A stretch of DNA of 64,000 bases, from positions 3,426,001 to 3,490,000 of the forward strand of contig OX365954.1 in NCBI GenBank assembly GCA_947247005.1. Direction: 5' to 3'. The stretch is from Spisula solida (lineage: Eukaryota > Mollusca > Bivalvia > Venerida > Mactridae). Positions 1 to 48,800 of this stretch are shown piece after piece (position 1 is the first letter of the stretch; every line of letters starts with the position of its first letter). Both the position numbers and the translations under genes were made by a program. Under the pieces are notes generated by a model. The model saw nothing but the letters and a program-made list of their open reading frames with translations. It did not search any database and was not told the DNA's origin.

Positions 1-1115
1 CAGAAAATAAACGTTATTATATTTAATGAAAGAATTTGAAGAATTGACAAAGTTATGATCATTTGAAGTTCTATAAGCTGAATTTTAACAGCAGATCAAT
101 CTTTGAAACAGAGTTCTGCTGTAGGGATGTGTGCTTATACGTGAAATGGACTTGCGACTCATTTTCAGGATTGGTCATAATGCCTTAGTAGGATGCCTGT
201 TAAATAGGGCAGTGGTCCTTAGGTAAGTGACACCCCTTGTTCTATAAGGTTAAGCATCCTGATTGGATGATTACTCAATTTAAATCTTGCACTTTCAGGT
301 GGGCCTCACAGTGTATTTACTTCCTCCTATATGATGTATGTATCGTTATTCTGTAAGCTTGGATTCTCTAGTCTAATGGGTAAGAGAGTATAATATAATT
401 ATGTTATAACATTAGCACTGAAATTATAATGCCCCTGTATGGGACTGTGGCCGAGTGGTTAGCTCTCCCACTTCCAATCTGGAGGTCCTTGGTTTGTATC
501 TCAGCTGGGGCACTGGAAATTTTACCTAACTAGAGATGAACTGGTTGGAAACCCAGAGGTATTTTCGTGTTTATCGGTGCTATATAAAAATTATATTTCT
601 ATTGGCGTGAGTATTGGGAAAGAGCTAGGGCAGCGCTCTCGGATTTCTTGTATAACACAACCTTTCTGTCTCTTCCCTTGAAACCAGAGGTTATTGGCCA
701 ATTAGGCAGAAAGAAAACCGAATGGCCATGCACTACGACTGTTTCAGTCAAACGCTAACAAAATGCCCTCCACCATCTTTGATGAGGGAGGGGGGATATT
801 GCTTTGCACACGTTGCTACGTTTGGTCTGTCAGTTGGGTGTCTGTCATTTGATCAATTAAGACTGGCCCTGCAATCCTCACCCTTTTCATGGAGGGTGGT
901 CAGCTCTAGTAGATGACAATTATGCATGTACTGATTTTGAGGTAAGTAGATTAAAGGCCAAGGTCGCCTTCAACATAAATAATTAGACCTTCCGATCAAT
1001 AACTCCTGAACGATTGGACTTTGGGTATTCAAATTTGGCTCTTTATTAGTTTCACAAAATGAAAAATGTTGTTTATTACAGTAAAATTTCGAAAGCTCCA
1101 CTTGAACTATTTCAG
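1..1115 (+). other. intron sequence upstream of first visible APEH exon
   Basis: No coding exon is recognisable here. The exon at 1116 begins in the middle of a codon (two bases complete a Val codon), so this stretch is intron of the peptidase gene and the earlier exons lie left of the window. It holds one degenerate tRNA-headed SINE (about 436-690) and otherwise nothing I can name. Confidence 0.6.
436..690 (+). mobile_element. tRNA-headed SINE, copy 1 (Ser/Leu-like head)
   Basis: Starts with an A-box-like segment (tggccgagtggttagc) and a decayed B box (ggtttgtatc where the better copy at 5456 has ggttcgaatc). It is followed by the body shared with the copies at 5456, 23851 and 44928: 'aaacccagaggta', 'tatcggtgctata', 'gaaagagctaggg' and 'tgtctcttccc'. 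Promoter decay suggests an old, inactive copy. Confidence 0.7.
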
Positions 1116-4100
1116 TGAACTACCGTGGATCAGTTGGGTTTGGTAGTGATAGTATATACAGTCTACCGGGGAAATGTGGAGACCAAGATGTGAAAGATGT
1201 ACAGGTGAGTACAGGTCTCAATCTTCTGAACCATCGCAAGTAGAAAAGTCAGCTCAAATTGAGATTTTACTCAAATCATAGTCTAAATTTGAGATGCATC
1301 TTAAGTTTGAGCTCTTACAATTTTACTGCAATAAGCTCAGACTAATGTTTCTGTTCTGTAATGCCAGTTTTTATTTCATATGGAAATTAACATTTAAACA
1401 TGTGACTCTTTGAGATGAGAATTAGCTCAGATTGAGATGCTTCAGGAGATTAGGGCCTGGTTGCCAAACACACAAAGTCTACCTATGTATTACTTAGAGA
1501 TTAATAACTGGGCGCGCTGTGGCATTGAATGATTATATCCCCGGTACGACGATAATGGCTCGAGGGCGCTAGCCCGAGTGCCATTATCAAGCGCCTGGGA
1601 TATTATCATTCAATGCCACAGCGCGCCCAGTTATTGAACTGTTTAATATACAAGTTCCGGCGAAGGAAATATATAAAAGCACTCAATGTCAACATCTTAC
1701 ATAACAGTATAGAATAAAGGTTACACACAGTGCAATTCTTATTCCGAGGCAAAATAGAACTAAAAGAAAACGGTCAATTAAATATTATGTCTTTTTAGTA
1801 AAATAAAAAAGTATGGATGTCCCGTTTTCCTTAATTTATTAGGCCTAGCCTTCAGGCGTACGTTTCGACGTGTATGTACAATAGGAGCCGTACGTTTAAC
1901 GTAAATTCCGCGTAAATAACGTCACGTCGCGCGTGCGCACGATCGCAGGGCGATTATTGATCACGTGATCGATAATATCCCGGGGGATATTATTGGTTTT
2001 CAACATTTTGATGATAATATCCTCGGTGGGGCGATAATACAGATTTTGTCAACGTAAAAATGTTACTATATATAGTAACAGGTGTATTAATAGGTCTTAT
2101 GACATTTCTGTTAATACTTGGGTCTGTCTGTAGAAAGTATCTCATGACCATAGGTACCGTAATGTTCTGGACCATACTGATTGACTTGTATCTATTTCCT
2201 TTAAATTACTAATCCTTGCATTCATGTGTTGCAAAACAATGAAGACTCCACCATCTTGTGAATTTTAAACTATTCATTTACTACTTGAATTTAATAATGA
2301 TTATTCTTCAGGTAGTGTATAGGAGTTGCACATTTGTTGTTATATGAAATCCTCTGCAATAGTCAAGACTGTTCAAATTATACCACAAGGGTAAAAAGTA
2401 GCCAATTCTATGGTTACTAGGTTTTTATAGATTTATATAGAGAAATATTGAAAATCTCTTCCTCTGAGACCACATGGCTTACAGCTTTGATAGTTTGTCA
2501 TGGTGTATCATGTTGAGGTGCTCTGTAAAGACTGTTGGAATCATACAACTGGGTGGGTATGATTTAAGTTTCCCCCTTTTTAAGGCCTTTTAGTACAGAT
2601 AGTGATTATTGTTGGAATCATAAAACTTGGTGGGTACAAATGGATTGCTTCGAGGTCAAGGTCACACTTAGGGGTTAAATGTCATATGGCTTTGTTTCCC
2701 TTCCGCTCTGTAACACTAAACCTGCAGTTAAAAATTAGTATGACATGCAGATTGCATATCTTCAGATGGTTCACTTCAAAGTACTTAATATGTTTCAACA
2801 GTCAAACGTTGGCTACCAAAACCTGAAACAAAACGTGTGGCGATGCTCTTGTTGTACTGATAGTATTATATTACAGAGTGCAGCTATGGAAGTGTTAGAG
2901 AAGGAAGGTTATGATAAGGAGAGAATGTTGATATGGGGAGGATCTCATGGTGGCTTCCTGACATGTCATCTTGTCGGACAATATCCGGTATGAACACAAT
3001 ATTTCCTGACAATATCACTTACTTAAGAAAACTAGTAAATAATTTGAATATGAAACCTTGCCAGATGTGTGGGTTTTGAACCCACGACCCCTGTGAAGCA
3101 ACTAAGTTGTTAAAATTACCAGAGATTATTATTAATAATAGTATAATACTGGCAACTGTTCTTATCCGAAAGATTCTTAGAATTACTTTTGAAAAAAAAA
3201 TCATTTAAATTCGAATTCTATATTCCTACTGTATAAGTGGTTCAGTTCGTGTCTTGGAAATCTTCGTGTTTTTCGCGAATAGCACATTGTAACGAAGTTT
3301 TCCGCCCGCCTAAATATCGGCCATCAAAAAACAGTGTTTATGTACGATCAAATATGATTTCACCACTTACTTTGTTCGTATTATACAAACCAATATAGGA
3401 AATGTTAATGAAGTGTGATATGAAAATAAAAGAAAACATTACTAAAAATGACGAATACTTACAGTGAAATAAATATTGTATTGACATTTCAACCGTCATG
3501 GCTATTTTACATACGTACATGGTTGAGTCACCGGTGTAAACACACTTTTTTTATTTATTTAATTCAGTCCTATTTATTTCCCTTCGTTAACGTGCACATA
3601 TGCATTTCGGATTACATCTGTGTTATTATTAAAGAGTTACTGGCATGTCTTCATTAGCGATCTGCATTGAAAACATCAAATATGCCAAAAGCTTGTTGAT
3701 CACACATGCAGAAACGACGAATGAAAGATGTGTGAATGCATACGAGTTTACATCGTACTATGTCAGTTTATCATAAACTATGAATGGGGACCTATTGTTC
3801 TAGGTGTGAACATATATACAACGAGACAAAGAAAACACTGACACTAAACAAAGACTTGACAAGTTTTTACGATTTTTTCAGTTATATTCATTAGAGTCAA
3901 TATCAATGAGTAGCATTAATATTAATTTCATACATAAAGATTATCTCTTGATAGCGTATCTTAACACATATCGTGCTAATAACATACAACATGCATAAAA
4001 TACGAGGTCAAACTAAAACGTATCCCCTCGATAGTTATAGTAATTTATTATTATAGGACAATCTGACCGGTACGGTTATACCGGAAAACAGCATTTTTAG

Positions 4101-7100
4101 CGATTTTCACGACATGTAATTATTACGCTCTTCCGAAAATTGAATTTATGTACGCGAAATGCCTAGAATAACGGATTCGCGAACTTTTCGACACGTGAAC
4201 ATATCCACTTATACAGTATGATTTTCACAGTTTAATGTGTACCAGCTACATGTTGTTGTATGATTATATGAGATATTTCTGTTCATGTTGTTCTACAGTC
4301 TATATTATTATACTATTATATATTGTTCTACAGGGTGTGTATAAAGCGTCTGTATGTAGAAATCCTGTCATCAACATTGCAAGTAAGTGTACATCAATTA
4401 CACATGTACACTGTACAAAATTATTTACCAGGAAATGATAAATACTAGTGTTTTCATTACTGTAAACCAAGAAATTATTTCGCGCGATTTAATTTCGCAG
4501 AGTTCGCGAGTGGTAGAATTTTACAAAATTAAGTCGCTGCGAAAATGCTAAAAACATTAATATGGACATTACGAGAAACTTAAAAGCACATTTGTAGTCA
4601 CGAATATGCCGACAATAAGCAAAATGTGAAAGTTAGTATTCGCGAAAGTAAATTGGTTTATAGTATCACAGACAACTTCTGGTTATTGCAATAAATCATA
4701 CACGTTGAATTGTATAGTCTCTCAATAAGTCATACAGTGATTAGGTTTATAATTATGCTGTGATTATTGTATCATAAGAATGGTGTGACTGGTTAAAATA
4801 ACAAATCTGATGACCGTGAATAAGCACGAATATTCGTGGTCCCAGGTTATACGATGACACATAGATCCGTGAAAAGTGACCTAGCCCACCTATATATATA
4901 TAGGTAGGCTAGGTCAGGTTTCACGGACCTGTGCGACGACACACTACCAATGTGGCTATTTATCATGCATGACCATTTTAAAGCATTAAAACATTACACG
5001 CGATACACGAAACATGACCATTTCTCTGCCGTATCATGTTTACATTATCAATTATTGTTTGTATGTAAAATTTGTATTATTGTTACATTGTATATGGAAA
5101 TTAAGGGTACATTAACGAAGAAATGATAAAGAAGGGTTCTTTTTCAACTTTGGAGACTTTTTAAAAACTATTGGTTTTACTGGCTAAACTTTGTTGCAGC
5201 CAAGGTTGGACTATCTGATTTCCCTGACACGTAAGTATCATGGAACTTAACATATCCTATATAGATTGTATGAAAGGATGATAACGATAAATGTGTAAGC
5301 ATGTTTCTCCAATTTTCATTACATTGTTACAGCAATGTGTGGTTCCTCTGATATACCTGACTGGTAAGTTGTGTTAAGTTTTCTCCACTACTAACAAACT
5401 TGTGTTACATGGTGAATCATTTGGCTAACCTTCACTGTTCATTAGTTCACCTTATAGGGTGGCCGAGTGGTTAACGCTCTCGACTACCAGTCCGGGAGTC
5501 CATGGTTCGAATCTTGGCCAGGACACTAGACATTTCTGAAACACTTTTCAGTGTTTCACACCCTACTAGAGATAAACTTGGTGGTAACCCAGAGGTAGTC
5601 TAGCGTGTATCGGTGCTATACATAGAACCCACGTTTAAGAACCAAGGAATCTGTTCAGAAAGAGCTAGGCTATCCCACCAGGATTCCTTGTATCACACTA
5701 CTGTCTCTTCTACTTGCTGTCTCTTAAGCAAAAACACAGGACCCCATTGGAAATAAGTGCTTGCACTTTTATGGGTTATCCTTGACCGAAAGGACTAAAT
5801 AATTACATACATACATACACACCTGAACTCACTTTCAATTATTATTAGCTCACAACAATTGCCTTTAGTTTCCATTAGCTCTTTAATTTCTATTAGGTCA
5901 CCTTAACTAACCTTCAAGTTTTGTTAGCTCACTTGAACTAACCTTTAATGTTATTAGCTCTCCTGAATTAACATTCAGTGTTCATTAGCTCACTTAAACT
6001 AACCTTCAATTTTTGTTAGCTCACCTACACCTATAAGCAGATTTGGCTCAGTGGTAACACGCTGGGCTGTCAATCCAGAGGTCGTGGATTCAATCCCTGG
6101 CATCGGAACTTGACATTTCTGAAATATTTATAATATTTCCCACTATATCTGGCCGTGTGGTCTGCAAAGTATCTGGAAGTGGCAGGAAGCTGTGTATCGG
6201 TTCTATACACCGGGCACATTAAAGAACCAGGCTCTCTATTCGAAATAAGGATAGGAGCACTTCTACAGCGCCTCACATGCCTGTATCTAATGTCTCTCTT
6301 TCCTTTAGGAGCTTTCTCTCAGTCTTTCCCTCTGGTCAGATCATGCTGTATCTGCACTGGTAGAGGATGCACCTGCGCCCTTGTGGCTGCAACACAATTA
6401 TGTAAAGTGCCTTTGAATGTGCATTCGCATAAAAAGGGCACTATATAAATCTGGTATATTTATTTATTTATTTTATTCGCTTTCAATTTCTATTAGCCGA
6501 TATGAATTCACAATTAGTATTTATCACAGGCCCTCAACGCGATTCAATGGTCTTAGTTATATTTTTTTCCGAACCATGAAATCGCGTCGAGGGCCTGTGG
6601 TATTTATTAGCTCAATTGAACCCACATTCAATTTTCATTAACTCACGTAACTTGCCTTCAATTTCATTAGCTGACTTAAAGTCATTGCACTTACTTTGTA
6701 ACTTGTACATGTATATTATATAGGACTAATGTTGAAGCTTGCATATTATATAGGACTAATGTTGAAACTTGCATATTATATAGGACTAATGTTGAAACTT
6801 GCATATTATATAGGACTAATGTTGAAGCTTGCATATTATACAGGACTAATGTTGAAACTTGTATATTATATAGGACTAATGTTGAAACTTGCATATTATA
6901 TAGGACTAATGTTGAAGCTTGCATATTATATAGGACTAATGTTGAAACTTGCATATTATATAGGACTAATGTTGAAGCTTGTATATTATATAGGACTAAT
7001 GTTGAAGCTTGCATATTATATAGGACTAATGTTGAAACTTGCATATTATATAGGACTAATGTTGAAGCTTGCATATTATAAAGGACTAATGTTGAAACTT

Positions 7101-8936
7101 GTATATTATATAGGACTAATGTTGAAACTTGCATATTATATAGGACTAATGTTGAAGCTTGTATATTATGTAGGACTACTGTTGAAGCTTGCATATTATA
7201 TAGGACTAATGTTGAAACTTGCATATTATATAGGACTAATGTTGAAACTTGCATATTATATAGGACTAATGTTGAAACTTGCATATTATAAAAGACTAAT
7301 GTTGAAACTTGTATATTATATAGGACTAATGTTGAAACTTGCATATTATATAGGACTAATGTTGAAGCTTGCATATTATATAGGACTAATGTTGAAACTT
7401 GCATATTATAAAGGACTAATGTTGAAGCTTGCATATTATATAGGACTAATGTTGAAGCTTGCATATTATATAGGACTACTGTTGAAACTTGTATATTATA
7501 TAGGACTAATGTTGAAGCTTGCATATTATATAGGATTAATGTTGAAGCTTGTATATTATATAGGACTAATGTTGAAGCTTGTATATTATATAGGACTAAT
7601 GTTGAAGCTTGTATATTATATAGGACTAATGTTGAAACTTGCATATTATACAGGACTAATGTTGAAGCTTGCATATTATATAGGACTAATGTTGAAGCTT
7701 GCATATTATATAGGACTAATGTTGAAGCTTGCATATTATATAGGACTAATGTTGAAGCTGGTCAGTCCTTCAATCATGCTACCATACCCAATGAACAGAG
7801 ATTATCAGCCATGTGGAAATGTTCACCTTTACAGTATGTTGACCAGGTAACTTATTGTGTTCAATAGTTTAATTGACACACTTTGTACATGTATTAAGCC
7901 ATTATCACATGCCACTTTTAACATAATTTGGTTGAAATATTCTTCCAGGCACAAACATATTTTATTTGGTCTCAGAGATATGGTCTGATGATAGTCTAAA
8001 ATTATGAACTTATTCTAGTTTTTGATACAGTTTAGACTGTCTGAAACAGACTATGCAGTTTGTCATGAGCTACAATAGTGCTGAGATATTAACGTGATCC
8101 TGACCTTTATGCTGAATATATCAATTTCCACGTACAAATCATGCATTACTGGTGTTTGTATTTTACACCTTATGTATAATTGTAATACTTCCTGCTTATG
8201 GAAACAAAGAATCGAAGTTAAGTATAGACGAGAAATCAACTGTTAAATTATGCTAAAAGTGAGTTCGAGCTAACAGTGAGTTTGAGGTCTGCATGGTAAA
8301 ACCATTATTATACATGAACAGCATATAATGTTTTGACTGATGTGTATTACAGATTACCACACCAATGATGATTATGATTGGGTTAGATGATAAGAGAGTT
8401 CCACCGAAACAAAGTTATGAGTTATATAAGGCATTGAAAGCCAGGAATAAAGTTGTCAGGTAAACCTATGAAATCTTCCGAAACTGTTAGGATGAAAACC
8501 ATGGCCTTTGTCAGATTACAAAGTCTTTGTATTTGCTATGTTTTAAAGCTTTGTCTTGAAAGTCATGTTCCAATCTATGAATTATTTGCGATTCATTTCA
8601 GATGCAAATTGGGAGTGTATGTTCATCACTATTGCGATATCATTGTTAATTAACCAAGATTTATTTTATTTGAATTGTTAAAATTCATTGTTTTGTTACG
8701 GATATTTGTGAGATGTATAGATTTGATTTTGATTGAGTTTATAAGGTCCTTGTATTGTCCCATACCTTTCAGTAATCTGGATTTTTATAAGAGCCCATGC
8801 AAATGCTTACTGTTATACTTACAGGTATATTGCTTATCCTGACAATGGTCATCCAATCGTGAAAGTCGATTCAGAAGCAGACGCCTTCATTAACATCTAT
8901 AAATGGTTTACTGAACATCTACCTGCAGTCAAATGA
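1116..8936 (+). CDS. APEH: Acylaminoacyl-peptidase (acylamino-acid-releasing enzyme), 3' part
   Basis: Serine hydrolase of the prolyl-oligopeptidase clan that removes N-acylated residues from blocked peptides, normally cytosolic (family knowledge). Exons: 1116-1204, 2877-2987, 4334-4382, then either 5200-5230 or 5333-5363, then 7744-7846, 8353-8459 and 8825-8936 (stop TGA 8934-8936). All have AG/GT borders and phases close. About 200 C-terminal residues of a roughly 730-residue enzyme are present. Visible motifs are NYRGSVGFG and DVKDVQ; nucleophile Ser in GGSHGG (exon 2877); NPVINIA; catalytic Asp in GLDDKRVP (exon 8353); and catalytic His in NGHPI (last exon). The fold should be the C-terminal alpha/beta-hydrolase domain. 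The 5' exons and propeller domain lie outside the window. Oddities are a duplicated 31-nt exon and an acceptor-site tandem array, each entered separately. Identity is firm; use of the alternative exons is inferred. Confidence 0.93.
1503..1635. repeat. palindromic MITE-like element
   Basis: Arms at 1503-1533 and 1605-1635 are near-perfect inverted copies (core ctgggcgcgctgtggcatt). A second inner inverted pair surrounds a gctcgagggcgctagcccga centre. Related palindromic pieces (gataatatcccgggggatattat-like) recur at about 1970-2035, so a larger decayed element may cover about 1503-2060. It lies in an APEH intron. Confidence 0.75.
3059..3125 (-). repeat. tRNA-like SINE head fragment
   Basis: Read on the minus strand, a T-arm-like B box (gtgggttcaaaacccac) follows a short region with a weak anticodon-arm shape. 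There is no intact acceptor stem. It is probably the head of a truncated SINE, not a tRNA gene. Confidence 0.4.
3229..4216. mobile_element. 988-bp MITE-like element with TA target duplication
   Basis: Ends CTGTATAAGTGG and CCACTTATACAG are inverted, each flanked by TA (3227-3228 and 4217-4218). The similarity extends imperfectly inward (gttcgtgtc at left, gacacgtgaac at right). No transposase reading frame is visible. TIR plus TA duplication fits the Tc1/mariner group. It occupies most of the intron between the nucleophile exon and exon 4334-4382. Confidence 0.75.
4460..4663. mobile_element. 204-bp MITE-like element with TA target duplication
   Basis: Left end CTGTAAACCAAG and right end TTGGTTTATAG are imperfect inverted copies flanked by TA on both sides (4458-4459 and 4664-4665). 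The interior is rich in 'cgcga/ttcgcg' words. No open frame. Confidence 0.6.
4866..4926. repeat. perfect-stem hairpin around a TA core
   Basis: Arms (tccgtgaaaagtgacctagc and gctaggtcaggtttcacgga) pair almost completely around a tatatata centre. A compact foldback or MITE remnant in the APEH intron. Confidence 0.7.
5200..5230 (+). CDS. APEH: APEH alternative exon 'a' (31 nt)
   Basis: Acceptor ttgttgcag, donor gtaagtat. Read from the A left by exon 4334-4382 it gives [10 protein letters not shown] plus the first two bases of a codon. It has the same length and phase as exon 5333-5363, and 19 of 31 aligned bases match. It occupies the place where human APEH reads roughly SMLGSTDIPDW, but lacks the Trp at its 3' junction. 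Including both exons shifts the frame into a TGA inside the second, so the two should be mutually exclusive. Possibly a decaying duplicate, though both splice sites are strong. Confidence 0.7.
5333..5363 (+). CDS. APEH: APEH alternative exon 'b' (31 nt, canonical-looking)
   Basis: Acceptor cattgttacag, donor gtaagttg. Encodes [10 protein letters not shown] and two bases of a Trp completed by exon 7744. It resembles the conserved GSTDIPDW segment of vertebrate APEH more closely than exon 'a' does, so it is likely the ancestral form. The intron separating the two exons is only 102 nt, short enough that splicing the pair together may be hindered (inference). Confidence 0.85.
5456..5716 (+). mobile_element. 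tRNA-headed SINE, copy 2 (best-preserved head)
   Basis: A box tggccgagtggttaacgc and B box ggttcgaatc are both intact, with a Ser/Leu-like head. The body is shared with copies at 436, 23851 and 44928 ('ctagagataaact', 'aacccagaggtag', 'tctagcgtgtatcggtgc', 'aagaaccaaggaatc'). It lies in the large intron before exon 7744. Confidence 0.8.
6036..6455 (+). mobile_element. SINE with an Asp-like tRNA head
   Basis: The head at 6036-6107 has an A box (ttggctcagtggtaacac) and a B box (ggattcaatcc) unlike the Ser/Leu-like heads elsewhere. Downstream it carries the same body words ('tgtatcggttctatacaccg', 'cattaaagaaccagg'). It seems to be a variant in which a different tRNA head joined a common SINE body. 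Confidence 0.65.
6525..6599. repeat. 75-bp hairpin element
   Basis: Arms cacaggccctcaacgcgatt and aatcgcgtcgagggcctgtg are inverted copies around an AT-rich loop. It is inserted in the diverged tandem repeat. Confidence 0.7.
6705..7743 (+). repeat. 30-bp tandem array of the intron-exon junction (35 acceptor-like sites)
   Basis: The unit begins GACTAATGTTGAAGCT (16 nt, identical to the start of exon 7744-7846) and ends TGCATATTATATAG (14 nt, identical to the intron end before it). It recurs every 30 bp from 6721 to 7741. Variation is mostly A/G in GAAACT or GAAGCT, C/T in GCATAT or GTATAT, and the base before AG (T, C or A). Each unit carries an ACTAAT branch-point-like word about 24 nt before its own AG. 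The array is open in the gene's frame from 7412 onward (repeat [10 protein letters not shown], with T for A in some units). In-frame TAA occurs upstream where the unit ends TATAA, the last at 7409-7411. Confidence 0.95.
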
Positions 8937-16500: not shown

Positions 16501-19500
16501 GTCTGCTGAGGCGGCTAGATATAATTTCATTGGACAAACTATGTGACGTCATTGTGCACCAGAGATGTGATTTGAACATGACCTCTTACAAAGTGTCGTC
16601 AGATACGAATGGAGCAAATGTTAGGGTCTGATTTTAATGAGATTGGCACAATTAGAAACATGATAACAGAAATAAAATCCAATACAGTGTTTATAAAAGA
16701 ATGCTTTTTCAAACCCATTCTGCTTTATATTTTTATGGAGAGGGAGAAGTACAGCTAGATTAATGAATGCTGTATGTGTTATAGTGATAGGAAAGGATGA
16801 TCAAACTTACTGGAAATGAACAGAGTCTCCAGGTGACATTTCTAAAGTGTTGGGAACAAAATCATATTCAACACTTGGATAAACTTGCACAATATTTCCA
16901 CGTTTTCCTCGTACATTTATGTTGTGTATTGTCGATCCTTGTAGATTTTTCGGCACTTTCTTTATTGAAAACACGTGTGACCTAAATAAAATCAAACACA
17001 TGAGACGTAATATATCTGTAGTTGAGAAGTAAGAAATATCGCATTACTTGACCAATATATGCTCATTTAGGGACTGTAAATCTCATATGATTGATCCAAT
17101 CTATTATACCAGGACTTTTTTGTGTTTGAGGCAAAAGTGTTTAATGTATTTAAATTCTACTGAACATGGCAGAACTCCAGCATGAAACATCAGTAACGTT
17201 TCAAGTGCCAGTAATTCTGCTAACATCAAATGGATTTATTTTCTTAATGTATTCAATGTACAGTTTTAGGTTATGATTTTACATCTGATGTTAAATTTTA
17301 ACATTCCTTGAAAAGATTTTTTCTCTCTAAATATCACAAAACTATTTGTAGAGTTTTCTCATTACCTGTCCTGAAATGTTCTACCAAATTGTGACGTATC
17401 AATTGCCAAACGAAAATTAAAAGTCCCCTCATCAAATATCTTAACCTCAGGGTCACCTTCAAACACATAGCCTCGAGCTGAAGCTGCTGTATAGTTGTTG
17501 AAGCCGTATTTCTTGGAGAGATCTAGTTTGGTTGGTTCGTTATTATTCACAGCATTCTTAGAAGAGTTTGTATTCCAACCATCATAGTCATTGGTAGAAA
17601 TATTGTACCTGGAATATACAGCCATACAATACAGGTTTTTAATTGAAATGTGACATTATGTATTTAAAATCATCCGCAACGCACAAAATACTGTCAAGTT
17701 TATCAATTTTCAATATGGCATACATAAAACCTTTTTGCATTAAAACATGGTTTCCTTAGTGCATTGATTATTTATGTCACAATAGATGTAGGGTTGGTTG
17801 CGTTTTTGTGACTGTCCGGTGTTTCATGCTCTGATGCTGCTGGTGGGTGCTGGCTTCCCTGTCTGATTGTTGTTGTCTTTTGTTATACAATCCTACAAAG
17901 TATCATTTATTAATAAAATACAGGTCAATTTTGGTTATAAAATATGCTCCCACTAATGAATAAGTGTGGGAGGGCACAAAAGATTTATTCCAGTGTATTT
18001 GCATTCATACAAGCTGGTTCATTTTCAATCTCGTATTTTCACAGACATATTAACTTTCCTTTGGTAGATCAATCAATCATGTTACATATGATTGAATACT
18101 GTCAATTATCGTACAAAAAATATCAATCAACGAAAAACAAATTGATTCCCATAATGGAAAGTCAATGTGGTAACCGATTATAACTAATGGAAAATCCAGG
18201 TAATTAACTGCGAAATAAATCATAAAGTCTGTAACATAGATTTCTCTGTTTCCAGTTACCTAATTCTCAGCACACATTTGTCTTCTTTGATATCAGGAAT
18301 TGTCCAATTAAATCTGTTAGGGTTTCCATCAAGACCGTTACCAAGGTGATTATCTCTGGTGAATTGTGTTTCTCTACAATCTGGTGGTGGTATACCATGA
18401 GCAGCCTCTTTCTTCCATACACCTTTCACACCATTATCATCATTAGCCGGGAATCTGAACGCCTGATAAATACATATCATATATAATCCATCAAACCAAT
18501 CCATAAAGTAATAATAAGACCAACAAACAAGACCACAATTATATGTAACACCATACGACAATAATCTGTCTGTTTATTCTGGTAAAAATCCAACTTCAGC
18601 AAATCCCTACATTCTGATTGGCTGAGACGAGGTGTTTACACACCAGTGAACAAATTTCAGTAACATACACCGTGGCCAATTAACCTAACCAAGTTTCCTG
18701 TATTGTTACCCAACCGATACTAACTAACCCTTTCACAAGGAATCAGCAACTTCTCCACATGTGCCGCAACTGGGAATCAAACCAGGATAGCCCTGTTACT
18801 AATCCAGCACAATGACCACTGAAACCACAGCCACGGCTAAAGACCTTTCTACACACAGATCTATAATATACATATATAGCCTACCTCACAATCCTCCCTG
18901 TTGTTTGGTATAGTTTTCACATTAGCTTTAGCCATTTCCTCTAGTTTATCAGTAGGGAACGAACATAACCAGCGCTCCTTCACGTTCGCACTTTCTGTTG
19001 TGTAATATTTACATCTTTCTGCGTTATTGGTCAATACTGCAACATCCTATAACATTAACAAGTACCGGTACATCATACAAATCACCTCAAAATACACAGT
19101 ACATTAATACACTATCATATCGTCGGCCTATCTTATTTTCGAATTCCTGTAAAGTCGATCACATTGTTGTGTTTTACAATAATTATAAACTAATCCATGA
19201 AAAGTATAAATTACAAGATATGAAAGTCCAAAGTGAACTACATGTACATGTTTCGTGAAAGAGAAATCCAGTTGCATTCTAGCATATCAAAATTATTTTG
19301 CTTTTTAAAGTACAAGAAATCTTGAGAAAACAAATTTGATAGTGTCAGAAGTTGACGGTCCCCACCTTCCATGGAGATGGATGCCAATATGGATAATAGT
19401 CTCTCTCTTCTGTACATTCATAACCATAGCGATTGTTCTTTCCATTATTTTCCTGGCGTGTGCTTACAGCAGTATCCCTTCCTTTCATAATCTGAAGAAC

Positions 19501-42800: not shown

Positions 42801-45800
42801 CTCTTCTTTTAAGATATATCAATTTTACATGAAATGTTTTGTAAAATGGCCGACTTTGTAAGCCAAAACAACTTTCACTTACACTACATACAGTGAAACA
42901 TATCCATAAAGATCACTCATAGAAACAGCAAACTGGTCTTTGTCAACAGGTTGTCTCTGTAATTAGGTTAAATATCTTTGTATATTGTCTAGTGGTCTTT
43001 GTCGACAGGTGGTCTCTGTTATTAGGTTAAATATCTTTGTATATTGTCTAGTGGTCTTTGTCGACAGGTTGTCTCTGTTATTATCTTATAATATCTTTGT
43101 ATATTGTCCAGTGGTCTTTGTGGACAGGTGGTCTCTGTTATTATCTTATAATATCTTTGTATATTGTCTAGTGGTCTTTGTGGACAGGTGGTCCCTGTTA
43201 TTGTCTTATAATATCTTTGTATATTGTCTAGTGGTCTTTGTCAACAGGTTTTGAAATACAAGTCTCTATACTATGATGCTGTTTGTTCCGAAGAAAAATG
43301 TTGTTGTAGCGAATATGCCAATATACTGAATTTATACAAAGAACGTTTTAAAGCATTTGTGCCCATAAAATGATGTCAGTTTATGAATATGTCAGTATAT
43401 CGGGTGTTGTTATATCGAGACCTGACTCACAGTATGTGGTTATATAGAGACCTGACTCACAGTATGTGGTTATATCGAGACCTGACTCACAGTATGTGGT
43501 TATATCGAGACCTGACTCACAGTATGTGGTTATATCGAGACCTGACTCACAGTATGTGGTTATATAGAGACCTGACTCACAGTATGTGGTTATATAGAGA
43601 CCTGACTCACAGTATGTGGTTATATAGAGACCTGACTCACAGTATGTGGTTATATCGAGACCTGACTCACAGTATGTGGTTATATAGAGACCTGACTCAC
43701 AGTATGAGGTTATATCGAGACCTGACTCACAGTATGTGGTTATATAGAGACCTGACTCACAGTATGTGGTTATATAGAGACCTGACTCACAGTATGTGGT
43801 TATATCGAGACCTGACTCACAGTATGTGGTTATATAGAGACCTGACTCACAGTATGTGGTTATATAGAGACCTGACTCACAGTATGTGGTTATATAGAGA
43901 CCTGACTCACAGTATGTGGTTATATCGAGACCTGACTCACAGTATGTGGTTATATAGAGACCTGACTCACAGTATGTGGTTATATCGAGACATGACTCAC
44001 AGTATGTGGTTATATCGAGACCTGACTCACAGTATGTGGTTATATAGAGACCTGACTCACAGTATGTGGTTATATCAAGACATGGCTCACAGTATGTGGT
44101 TATATAGAGACCTGACTCACAGTATGTGGTTATATCGAGACATGACTCACAGTATGTGGTTATATCGAGACATGACTCACAGTATGTGGTTATATCGAGA
44201 CATGACTCACAGTATGTGGTTATATCGAGACATGACTCACAGTATGTGGTTATATAGAGACCTGACTCACAGTATGTGGTTATATAGAGACCTGACTCAC
44301 AGTATGTGGTTATATCGAGACCTGACTCACAGTATGTGGTTATATAGAGACCTGACTCACAGTATGTCGTTATATCGAGACATGACTCACAGTATGTGGT
44401 TATATAGAGACCTGACTCACAGTATGTCGTTATATCGAGACATGACTCACAGTATGTGGTCTTTGTTTGATGGTTGTCCTTATCATAGGTTTGACTGTAT
44501 GTGTATTTGTGGTAGACAATATTCCTAATTTTGAAATGATGTGCCGGTACATTAGTTGTTGCAAAAACTGAATGGTGTTAAGTATCTATGTGCCACAAAC
44601 TTATCACAAAATCACTAAGAAATGATCAATTTATATTTCTGTAATAAGAAAATGCCTTATTTATGTTTTCAGATCAAACCATTTAGGAAATGGACGAGGA
44701 GATGGTCAACCCCTCACATATACATGGACTCTACCATATTTCCCATCAGGCCATGAACACAAATGTGTGTACAGAATGAGGTAACCAAAGCAATATTGGC
44801 GTATTGCGCAAATTTGCAGAATTCACCAACGTTTCCTTTAGCAAAAGTTTTGGCCTACAAAGAATTCTACAATAAAGAAATAAATCACTAATATTTTCGC
44901 AGGCTGAATGTCAAATTCATAATTGCTATGGGTGGCACCAATGTGGAGGTTCCTTGTTTGAATCTCCAATTTCAAAAACACTTCAATGTTTCCCACCCAA
45001 CTAGAGTACTGCTTGGTTACCCAGAAGTAGTCTAGCGTTTATCAGTGCTATACTGGCATGCGAGGTATTACCGGACAGCAGTAATGACCGGACAACTGGT
45101 CCTAGACGCTTATTTTCTGGAGCTATGTATTGAAATTTGTACCTAATCACTCAGAAGCGTGTTTTGAATAAATCTAGAAGAAAAAAAATATTCAAGATTA
45201 ACAAAACATTGTCTATTTATCCAAAATGTCGTACGCGGCTGCGTGTTTACGTTAGCGGCGCTTGGGGAAATCACCATCGTGTGCGCATGCGCAAAATAAC
45301 ACGAGCTGAGCGCGTGCGTCATTGATTTTATACGGTTAAATTAATTAGCTTCATTTTATGTAAAGAGTGAATAGCAGAGTGGTTAACGTCTTAGGTTATG
45401 AAGCGAGAGGACCCGCGATCGGTTCCTCGCGGCGTCAAAATTTTTATCTTTTTTTTTTTAAATTTAATTTCTTCCATTTATACCAGCTCTAATTTCAGCA
45501 GGATATTGTTAATTACGAAATTTGTCAACGGATATCAGTTGAGTAACCCTTTTTAAGATCTTATCCATAAGTCTGAAATACTTTGAGTTGATTTTTAATC
45601 GTTTTAATCGACTTTTGATTGGTATGTTATGTACGGTATATTACGGTATCTGACCTACCACAGAACGCCACCTGGCGGGAAAACATGGCGCGTCACGAGT
45701 TGTTATTACGAAAATAGTGACATATTTTCGCATAAATAGGAAGTACGAACCCTGTTTAAATCATTTCCTATAATAAGTTTCCAAATTTTAAGTTAAAAAT

Positions 45801-48800
45801 GGTTGAAACCGACTGTCCGGTAATACCTGCTGAACGTCGTTGAAAAAAGCGTAAAAAGTGCCCCTGTTTGGGCCCCTAAATTTGGATGTTATGGTGACGT
45901 CATTTTTCAGGAATTCTATTTTTAGGAAGGCCTTGAACACAGGTATGTGTCAGCACCAAAAATTCTGGGTAAAAATCGATTTTTAACTTGACATGAAGCT
46001 TTTTATGCCATTTCTGTCCGGTAATACCTCGCATGCCAGTACACCGGGCACAATAAAGAACCAAGGAATCTTTTTAGAAACAGCTAGGGTAGCGTACCTG
46101 GATTTATTGTAAGCTTTGTGTCTCTTCCCTAGAAGCCAGAGGTCATTGGCCAATTAGGCAGGGATAAAATGCAAAAAAAAAAAATTCGCTAACCTCCTGA
46201 CCCAAGCAAATATCCACCTATTCGTTACTCAACTATGAGAAATGTTGCCATATTTCAGGTATAACATATCAACAGATGATTATGATCCATATAACACCAA
46301 CTCTAGTCACAATCAGGGTAATGGTGTAATATCACCCGTACAGGATAATATACAACTTGATGTTGGTGGACCTACCAAGTTACAGATGGCGCTCAATACT
46401 GATCAGACTGGCCGAGTATTCCAGGTGAGGAGTTACTCCCATTGTATGATATACACTCAAAGTTGTACTTTAGTGTCACGTTTTGAAGTGTCACAATTTC
46501 TTTTTTACTGAATTTATTTGAAAATTTTGTTATGCTCTTATGAGTGTGAATCAGAAATTCCTGACAATGACATTATAATTAAACATACTAGTATTAGTTT
46601 TATTGGACAGCTATCTAACTGTCCTCAATTAGATATTGGACCAAGTATTTTCCCCTAGATGTAGGACCAAGTATTTTCCCCTAGATGTAGGACCAAGTAG
46701 TTTGCCCTAGATGTAGGATCAAGTATTTTGCCGTAGATGTAGGACCAAGTACCGTATTATAATTCCCCTAGATACAGGATCAAGTATTTTGCCCTAGATA
46801 CAGGACCAAGTATTTCTCGTAGATGTAGGACCAAGTACCGTATTATAATTCCCCTAGATACAGGATCAAGTATTTTGACCAAGTATTTGCCGTAGATGTA
46901 GGACCAAGTATATTGCCGTAGATGTAGGACCAAGTATTTATCCCCTTAAACCAATTACTGAAGCACTGAGTAACCAGTGAGTTCTTTATAAATTCCTCTT
47001 TTATTTATTAATATGTATGTTCAATGATTTTAACAGGACCGGTCTCATAGATTTCGTCTGATGCCTCGACCGGATGGCTGGGAGGGGGAGACAATACATA
47101 ATCTAAATGCACGTGGAAAGAGAGGAAATATTGTGCAAGTTTATCCAGCAGTGGAGTATGATTTCACACCAAACCGTCTTCAGGTCTCAGATAGACATCT
47201 GGTTCATATCCAGTGGACAGGTAATTTATATATTCATATATATCAATATCATCTAGTTAGGGCTCTATAGTAGCATAAATAAGCTCCTAGCTTTGATCAC
47301 CAACCAACTGAAGGACAGATATATCAGGTAATACAGGTAAGGTTTTGTTGACGATATTTAGATGACATGTCACCTTCGGGAATCATGTCAAAGTCAAACT
47401 TAGAGGTCAAAGGTCATAATTATAGTTACTAAGGGGGAATTCATGCCCTTCAATCTTAGTGTATCAAGTTTTATGTAGCGTCTACATGTGTTTAACTGTC
47501 CAATAAAAGTTTGTAGAACATGTGTTGAACTGCCTATCAGATGATTGTCTTTAATTTGATAGAGGCTCCCATGGAAGACAAGGTATGCCCCCATTGTGTT
47601 GCCTCTATAACTCTTTCAAGGTACATGTATAAGTCTATATTAGTCTTGTTTATGATAACTAATATTATTGTACATTATATTTGTTACTAGGTTCTAACAC
47701 CCACAACAATGGGAATCCAGCCGGAGATGGACAAGCTGGTGATGATGGCGAAGGAAAAGATGGTAAATACTATACTGTAAAATCATAGATATTTGTGAAG
47801 CATTTAATTTTGTGGATGACCGCAACCATAAAATTAAATCCACAATGAATAATTGTACCAATAAATATGTCAAGTTTACAGCAGCTGCCATACTTGCTTT
47901 CAAGTTCAGTCAGGTATAAGACAAGGTTTTTGGGATGTTTACATGCATATATCAACATGTAATTAAAGTTATTATTATTAAACATTTATTATATCTGTTA
48001 GATGTTGAATGATTTTGCAGTAAATCAGTTGTTTGTATCGGGTAACTAGCTCTCAAAACATAGGGCAGATAGGTTAGAAAATGTTGGTTTGTTTAAAACA
48101 TATATGTAGAGAATGAGCAACTACTCTTCAAATGTATCAGAAATATCGGAAAATAGAAAAAACAATTCTAACGCTCAACAACAGAGGATTGCATTGCTAT
48201 AAATTAAGAACTTGACAAAAAAGGTTAAAGCTGGAGTTGTGTTAAATATAAATCTCCCCTATTGAAAATCTCCCCTATCTCTCACATGAAAATCTGGCTT
48301 TTATTTCATACCCCTGCGATGGATACCCTCAGAAATGTAGTGTCTAGAGTGATTAATATATTTGTATATCTTGGGTTACAATTTACCCATGTTTACTATA
48401 TTACAGGCTCAGACAGGCACAATATGGTACAGATAGGAGATTTAAAGGACAACTTTCCATTACCATTTGAGCAGACTACAATGTGGAATAACGCTAAAGT
48501 TGTCTGGATGTACCATGGCAAGAATGATATATCATCGAAAGATCTCGCACTGAACATAGCTTCATCTGGATATTACAGGTAATACTCTGTCTGCATTGAA
48601 CACCTGGGTACTGTTTTACTAACATTGTGTAAATGTCAAGTAAATCTACGTATACATTTTTCACTTATGCAGATTCCTTAGCGTGTTTTACTAATCAATC
48701 ACAAGTTATTGCATATATTTACGTAAAAATATTGAATATTGAACATAGACTGGGCCACAGTATTACCAATATAACAGGAACGAGAATGAATAAATACATA

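Follow-up and report, generated by a model that had tools for sequence, protein, structure and literature searches.

The described system closest to the locus studied here is a minisatellite in the human 6-16/IFI6 gene, which was reportedly the subject of a report by Turri et al. in 1995 and is said to lie over an exon-intron boundary, where extra units would add a few in-frame codons; the array that we describe in the APEH gene of the clam Spisula solida likewise overlaps such a boundary and reaches 16 nt into the exon. In the portion of its published description drawn on here, the IFI6 minisatellite provides multiple splice donors, and three mRNA species arise by way of two downstream repeat units (PMC4526556). 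On that description the two loci are alike in that minisatellite units offer alternative splice sites for one exon. They differ in that the IFI6 units are donors whose use in mRNA is reported, whereas the APEH units are AG acceptors, most of them with a branch-point-like motif, and are known from sequence. By analogy, the APEH array would be the mirror image of the IFI6 donor minisatellite. An earlier, sequence-only reading of this DNA had known of no described case with such a design, a claim that has to be narrowed: a donor-supplying minisatellite is in print for human 6-16/IFI6, and what stands is that no acceptor-side minisatellite was recognised in the literature searched, of which the coverage was partial and left subscription journals largely outside.

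Other known systems share part of this arrangement, as far as the available sections of the respective papers describe them. NAGNAG tandem 3' splice sites resemble the APEH array in that one AG can replace its neighbour without loss of frame, but their AGs are mainly 3 nt apart (PMC2423196); the array places 34 AGs on a 30-nt grid, most of them accompanied by a branch-point-like site. Held against the NAGNAG criteria, the array departs in its spacing (30 nt instead of 3), and the frame is kept from all 35 of its positions, 12 of which are stop-free. The coding 30/33-bp repeats of the prawn Rlec lectins have in common with APEH their 30-bp, frame-keeping units, and their variable copy number alters protein length; they lie inside exon 2, however, and the alternative acceptor described there belongs to exon 5, outside the repeat (PMC7536079). 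In the human morpheus (NPIP) paralogues, in-frame tandem units vary in number among transcripts of one locus, but these repeats are exonic and the differences are ascribed to structural polymorphism, not to alternative splicing (PMC2812944). Finally, the tandem duplications that make new introns are likewise local duplications touching splice signals (PMC4974935), although those cases gain introns while the APEH array multiplies one acceptor with no new intron.

The window referred to below is the whole 64-kb stretch of Spisula solida DNA that was analysed, positions 3426001-3490000 of contig C12, and the features of the locus within it are collected in Table 1. The identification of the gene as APEH in the sequence-only reading is borne out by exons along the length of the homologues P0001-P0004, by a match to acylamino-acid-releasing enzyme in PDB (E 1.5e-66) and by Peptidase_S9 (Pfam) matches within single exons; homology is full-length and takes in the S9 catalytic domain, which places the gene in the APEH class. 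By tblastn with four bivalve homologues, its exons span from about -13,877, 5' of the window (L010/L009), to 8936. Joined together, they form one open frame 715 codons long, which codes for 714 residues and closes with a stop; in this model a few upstream donor positions are approximate. Among the homologues listed (120 out of 684 proteins passing E 0.001), those closest to the C-terminal part of this model are from heterodont bivalves, with 80% identity in Mercenaria and Mactra antiquata and 79% in Dreissena and Ruditapes. The intron that carries the array is preceded by two short exons, A and B, which encode alternative versions of the conserved SDIPDW segment and have the same phases. Either of them alone keeps the frame and, because inclusion of both or neither would shift it, the two are apparently mutually exclusive. 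An A-like form, SKVGPSDIPDA, is found in Mactra antiquata P0002, and Haliotis rufescens P0085 has another form without the W.

Table 1. Features of the APEH gene and its splice-junction array (positions of the window).
Feature	Position	Strand	Basis and remarks
APEH gene, in-window part	299..8936	+	tblastn and homologue comparison; other exons 5' of the window
APEH exons	299-379, 1116-1204, 2877-2987, 4334-4382, A/B, 7744-7846, 8353-8459, 8825-8936	+	
Alternative 31-nt exon A	5200..5230	+	Resembles Mactra antiquata P0002
Alternative 31-nt exon B	5333..5363	+	Form in most homologues; its donor opens the array-bearing intron
Splice-junction minisatellite, 35 head-to-tail 30-bp copies	6710..7759	+	TRF, unit walk, edge check
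14-nt intron end TGTATATTATATAG, 5' array edge	6710..6723	+	Abuts non-repeat intron; equals the intron half of one unit variant
Upstream block, acceptor positions reading into TAA	6724..7411	+	TAA ends at 7081, 7291 or 7411; unit walk, frame check
Stop-free 3' block, 11 units	7414..7743	+	Each unit equals an in-frame 10-residue insert; unit walk, frame check
16-nt exon start GACTAATGTTGAAGCT (W-TNVEA), 3' array edge	7744..7759	+	Runs on into the exon
APEH exon starting at the last array acceptor	7744..7846	+	Phase-2 junction with exon A or B; confirmed as a genuine APEH exon by homologue comparison

The array structure is real and unusual. TRF delimits the array at 6713-7759, with a period of 30, 34.9 copies, 94% matches and 0% indels, and stepping back 30 nt at a time from 7744 yields 34 complete units plus the copy in the exon, all in one phase. 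By exact periodicity the array starts at 6713, or at 6710 if a C/T difference at unit position 19, which is carried by 9 of the 34 units, is tolerated; with the end at 7759, the longer span comes to 1050 bp, or 35 x 30, and is free of indels. The unit begins with GACTAATGTTGAAGCT, the 16 nt with which exon 7744-7846 opens, and continues as TGCATATTATATAG or TGTATATTATATAG or as rarer variants; TGTATATTATATAG is identical to the 14 nt immediately 5' of the first unit, at 6710-6723. Unit walk, TRF and edges therefore agree with what had been described from the letters, a unit made of the last 14 nt of the intron and the first 16 nt of this exon and present 35 times. A 20-mer of the unit has 35 matches in the window at up to 3 mismatches, compared with a mean of 0.01 in shuffles, and a 28-nt unit pattern has at least 29 exact matches across the whole genome (931,988,947 bp), every reported one of them in this array. 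With head-to-tail units in the range of about 10-100 bp, the array is a minisatellite.

No known structured RNA or tRNA gene was recognised in the array region by Rfam at its gathering score or by ARAGORN, and the predicted RNA folding of 7534-7803 is unremarkable (z = -0.71). A pentapeptide-repeat identity for the translated array was set aside, and the likeness was taken as the chance similarity of a period-10 repeat: PF00805 reaches 29.8 bits over the whole protein, above its cut-off of 20.2 bits, yet no single stretch passes, and PF13599 stays below its cut-off.

The branch-point-like CTAAT lies about 24 nt before the AG of the unit, its A being 25 nt before the exon start. The claim that each unit has all the sequence elements of a 3' splice site holds for most units and falls for a few. 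An AG is found at 34 of the 35 acceptor positions, 7294 being preceded by AA instead, and ACTAAT is unbroken in 31 of 34 units, with three units having no perfect copy. What had been claimed about the reading frame survives in full: when joined to a preceding TG, every one of the 35 positions gives a length to the exon end that is a multiple of three, so that the 30-nt unit keeps phase; the twelve positions from 7414 to 7744 are stop-free in the frame of the gene; and the remaining 23 read into TAA and would be non-productive.

With moderate confidence, we interpret the array as a tolerated and probably leaky splice-junction minisatellite, the nearly neutral by-product of a neutral expansion over the junction. 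Most likely it began as a tandem duplication that took in the splice junction, because its left edge enters non-repeat intron and its right edge enters the exon. The exon half is the likely source, with no need for an invader, because it encodes part of the conserved W-TNVEAG motif. At the matching columns, 117 of the 120 listed homologues share the W, 111 the E and 119 the G. From the composition and the edges we infer that a 30-bp segment spanning the end of the intron (14 nt) and the beginning of the exon (16 nt) underwent tandem duplication, and slippage or unequal exchange could then have expanded it to 35 copies. By luck, the duplicated unit would have been a multiple of three, stop-free in the gene frame and provided with a CTAAT about 24 nt before its AG. 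Each copy could thus serve as a weak, self-contained 3' splice site, and the expansion would leave the gene intact. Splicing would probably be spread over several near-equivalent acceptors, of which 7744 would give the normal enzyme, nearby copies would add in-frame 10-residue repeats and far-upstream copies would produce TAA-ended transcripts that should go to nonsense-mediated decay. Leaky acceptor choice is likely on these grounds, and the units give no sign that the leakiness is selected for.

In the strongest rival reading, exon definition or an unseen enhancer fixes 7744, the upstream copies are ignored and the array is intronic filler. We consider a silent array of this kind unlikely, although far from negligible. 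Scored with a weight matrix built leave-one-out from the 20 other acceptors of APEH, and hence representing one gene only, the real acceptors range from 2.0 to 13.4 and the 34 array AGs from -8.1 to -0.5, below all 20 real sites. Elsewhere in the array-bearing intron, 16 AGs score higher than the best array copy, and in 15 further window and pseudocount settings the best copy surpasses between none and 3 of the 20 real sites. The upstream copies, poor by the matrix, may simply be ignored. The same scores count against the rival, however, since 7744 is itself no better than its neighbours. Its score is -5.25, which is equalled or exceeded by 55% of the 916 other intronic AGs of APEH, and it lies under all 20 real acceptors and under the best array copies in each of the 15 settings.

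Simpler measures are kinder to the array. At 33 of its 34 AGs there are 7 pyrimidines per 12 nt (6 at 6724), where real acceptors average 7.75 and have at least 6, and the pyrimidine run is 3, where real acceptors average 3.9 and have at least 2. By these counts the array acceptors are within the real range, so 7744 could equally be used cleanly. The 25-nt spacing of the CTAAT A from the exon falls inside the range covered by the YTNAY candidates that 17 of the 20 real acceptors possess. YTNAY is a loose pattern; because L009 contains it no more often than chance predicts (487 occurrences in 10 kb on both strands, compared with 513 by chance), it was not used for ranking sites, and branch-point likeness is weak evidence. 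The array acceptors thus appear weak but plausible, and none stands out as a single strong site.

Comparison of homologues also speaks for a silent array. The D..E spacing at the array junction is exact in 119 of the 120 listed homologues, the exception being P0021, which is without the neighbouring segment, and an insert at this junction is absent from all 120. A search for insert-bearing proteins found none among 446 candidates, its 3 matches all being known homologues; such a search barely covers minor isoforms, speaks to mRNA at most indirectly, and may have been made in a database that lacks this clam's own proteins.

A functional array fares considerably worse. The sequence-only reading had suggested that array length and acceptor choice tune APEH protein length or transcript decay, and we see only a slim chance of this. 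Nor do we give much credence to its fuller form, in which a working splice-acceptor array would by its length set both a ladder of APEH proteins with 0-11 inserts and the share of decayed transcripts, with alleles acting as expression settings; a selected tuning role appears quite improbable. The frame-preserving unit, the twelve open acceptors, the stop-containing upstream block and the position of the array directly after an alternative exon pair are all as such a role would have them, but several observations tell against it. First, the units carry no signal of constraint. The columns that vary among the 34 units are 3, 6, 14, 19, 27, 28 and 30. The AG columns show 1 loss where 0.7 would be expected (at a rate taken outside columns 14 and 19), and the distinct unit variants comprise 5 non-synonymous changes, 2 synonymous changes and 1 stop, compared with 63:18:6 among possible single changes, so that across the 34 units neither AGs nor codons are protected beyond chance. 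The open 3' block is no evidence of selection either, because the chance that the last 11 units are stop-free, given three stop-bearing units among 34, is 0.30. Taken together, these three comparisons indicate no clear selection. One column differs along the array: at unit position 14, G is present in 9 of the 11 exon-proximal units, compared with 9 of the 23 units further upstream (p = 0.03 in a single, uncorrected Fisher test). Exon 7744-7846 itself has G at this position, and the G adds an extra AG 16 nt before the unit acceptor. Local homogenisation explains the excess most simply, although selection could have left this trace.

Second, the protein would have to accept inserts, which no listed homologue has, beside invariant residues. 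In the Mercenaria model (mean pLDDT 90.4, with a mean of 84 for block 601-610), they would fall between W605 and C606, where helix 605-609 of the catalytic domain begins, and would adjoin D601 and D604, which are invariant in a 36-sequence alignment. Because every insert would bring a TNVEA-like stretch with it, the junction would keep its sequence on either side and the extra residues could also sit after the helix; on this model, tolerance of the inserts by the protein is possible. The weakness of the array acceptors by the small matrix is a further point against tuning.

Finally, such arrays are common in this genome. An array was counted as a minisatellite if it had 5 or more copies, a match of 85% or better and a period of 10 or longer; 190 kb sampled at 19 positions contained 11 of them, making up 4.4% of bases, and 5 of these have at least 15 copies. 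Five arrays lie in the 64-kb window under the same rule. With random placement at this density (11 arrays in 190 kb, a small sample), the chance that an array edge lies no more than 15 nt from any one acceptor would be about 0.35%. The Spisula solida annotation comprises 13,833 protein-coding genes, according to the part of the genome report drawn on here (PMC11101916), and for that number, if several introns are assumed for each, the expected overlaps between arrays and acceptors would be of the order of 100 or more, of which selection would remove some. A single array-acceptor overlap needs no special cause, because overlaps are expected from this base rate.

We regard it as highly improbable that the expansion instead damaged the gene and gave a poorly spliced haplotype that survives as a recessive or rare allele. 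A naive model of acceptor strength does assign 0.38-0.40 of use to the open acceptors and 0.004-0.025 to 7744, but this model is illustrative and blind to exon definition and branch-point choice, and the rest of the APEH gene is open. Least credible of all is a false or collapsed array produced by assembly: arrays are hard to assemble, but this one, at about 1 kb, is shorter than a typical HiFi read. The Spisula solida assembly has 31-fold PacBio HiFi coverage and a QV of 62.8, as given in the part of its report available (PMC11101916).

The array illustrates how a minisatellite can extend over a splice junction while a conserved gene keeps its reading frame open. The choice of the spliceosome among many equal AGs is usually studied in artificial constructs. 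APEH may offer a naturally occurring set of 34 nearly identical acceptors, the majority of which have a branch-point-like motif, downstream of a fixed donor pair. Counts of junctions at the array would report acceptor choice by position, and the differences between units (C/T at position 19 and the extra AG from G at position 14) could serve as built-in variants.

The array-bearing intron has other contents as well. An acceptor-like decoy AG at 6309, the highest-scoring of the 16 non-array AGs mentioned above, scores 7.9 and exceeds every array acceptor by the small matrix. Sequences at 5455-5760 and 6037-6450 look by eye like tRNA-derived SINEs, and ARAGORN reports no tRNA gene there. About 100 bp 5' of the array, an inverted repeat at 6515-6609 (37-nt arms, 81% complementary, 21-nt spacer) may be MITE-like by eye. 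Elsewhere in the window, a second 30-bp array (43405-44460, 35.2 copies by TRF) stops some 210 bp short of a likely exon, placed by eye near 44673, and is probably intronic and off any junction. A Pfam scan of seven open frames of the window, 46239-46511 included, returned no match; the open frames 17362-17655 (minus strand) and 46239-46511 (plus strand) encode a similar 16-residue peptide, which suggests two paralogous genes in the window.
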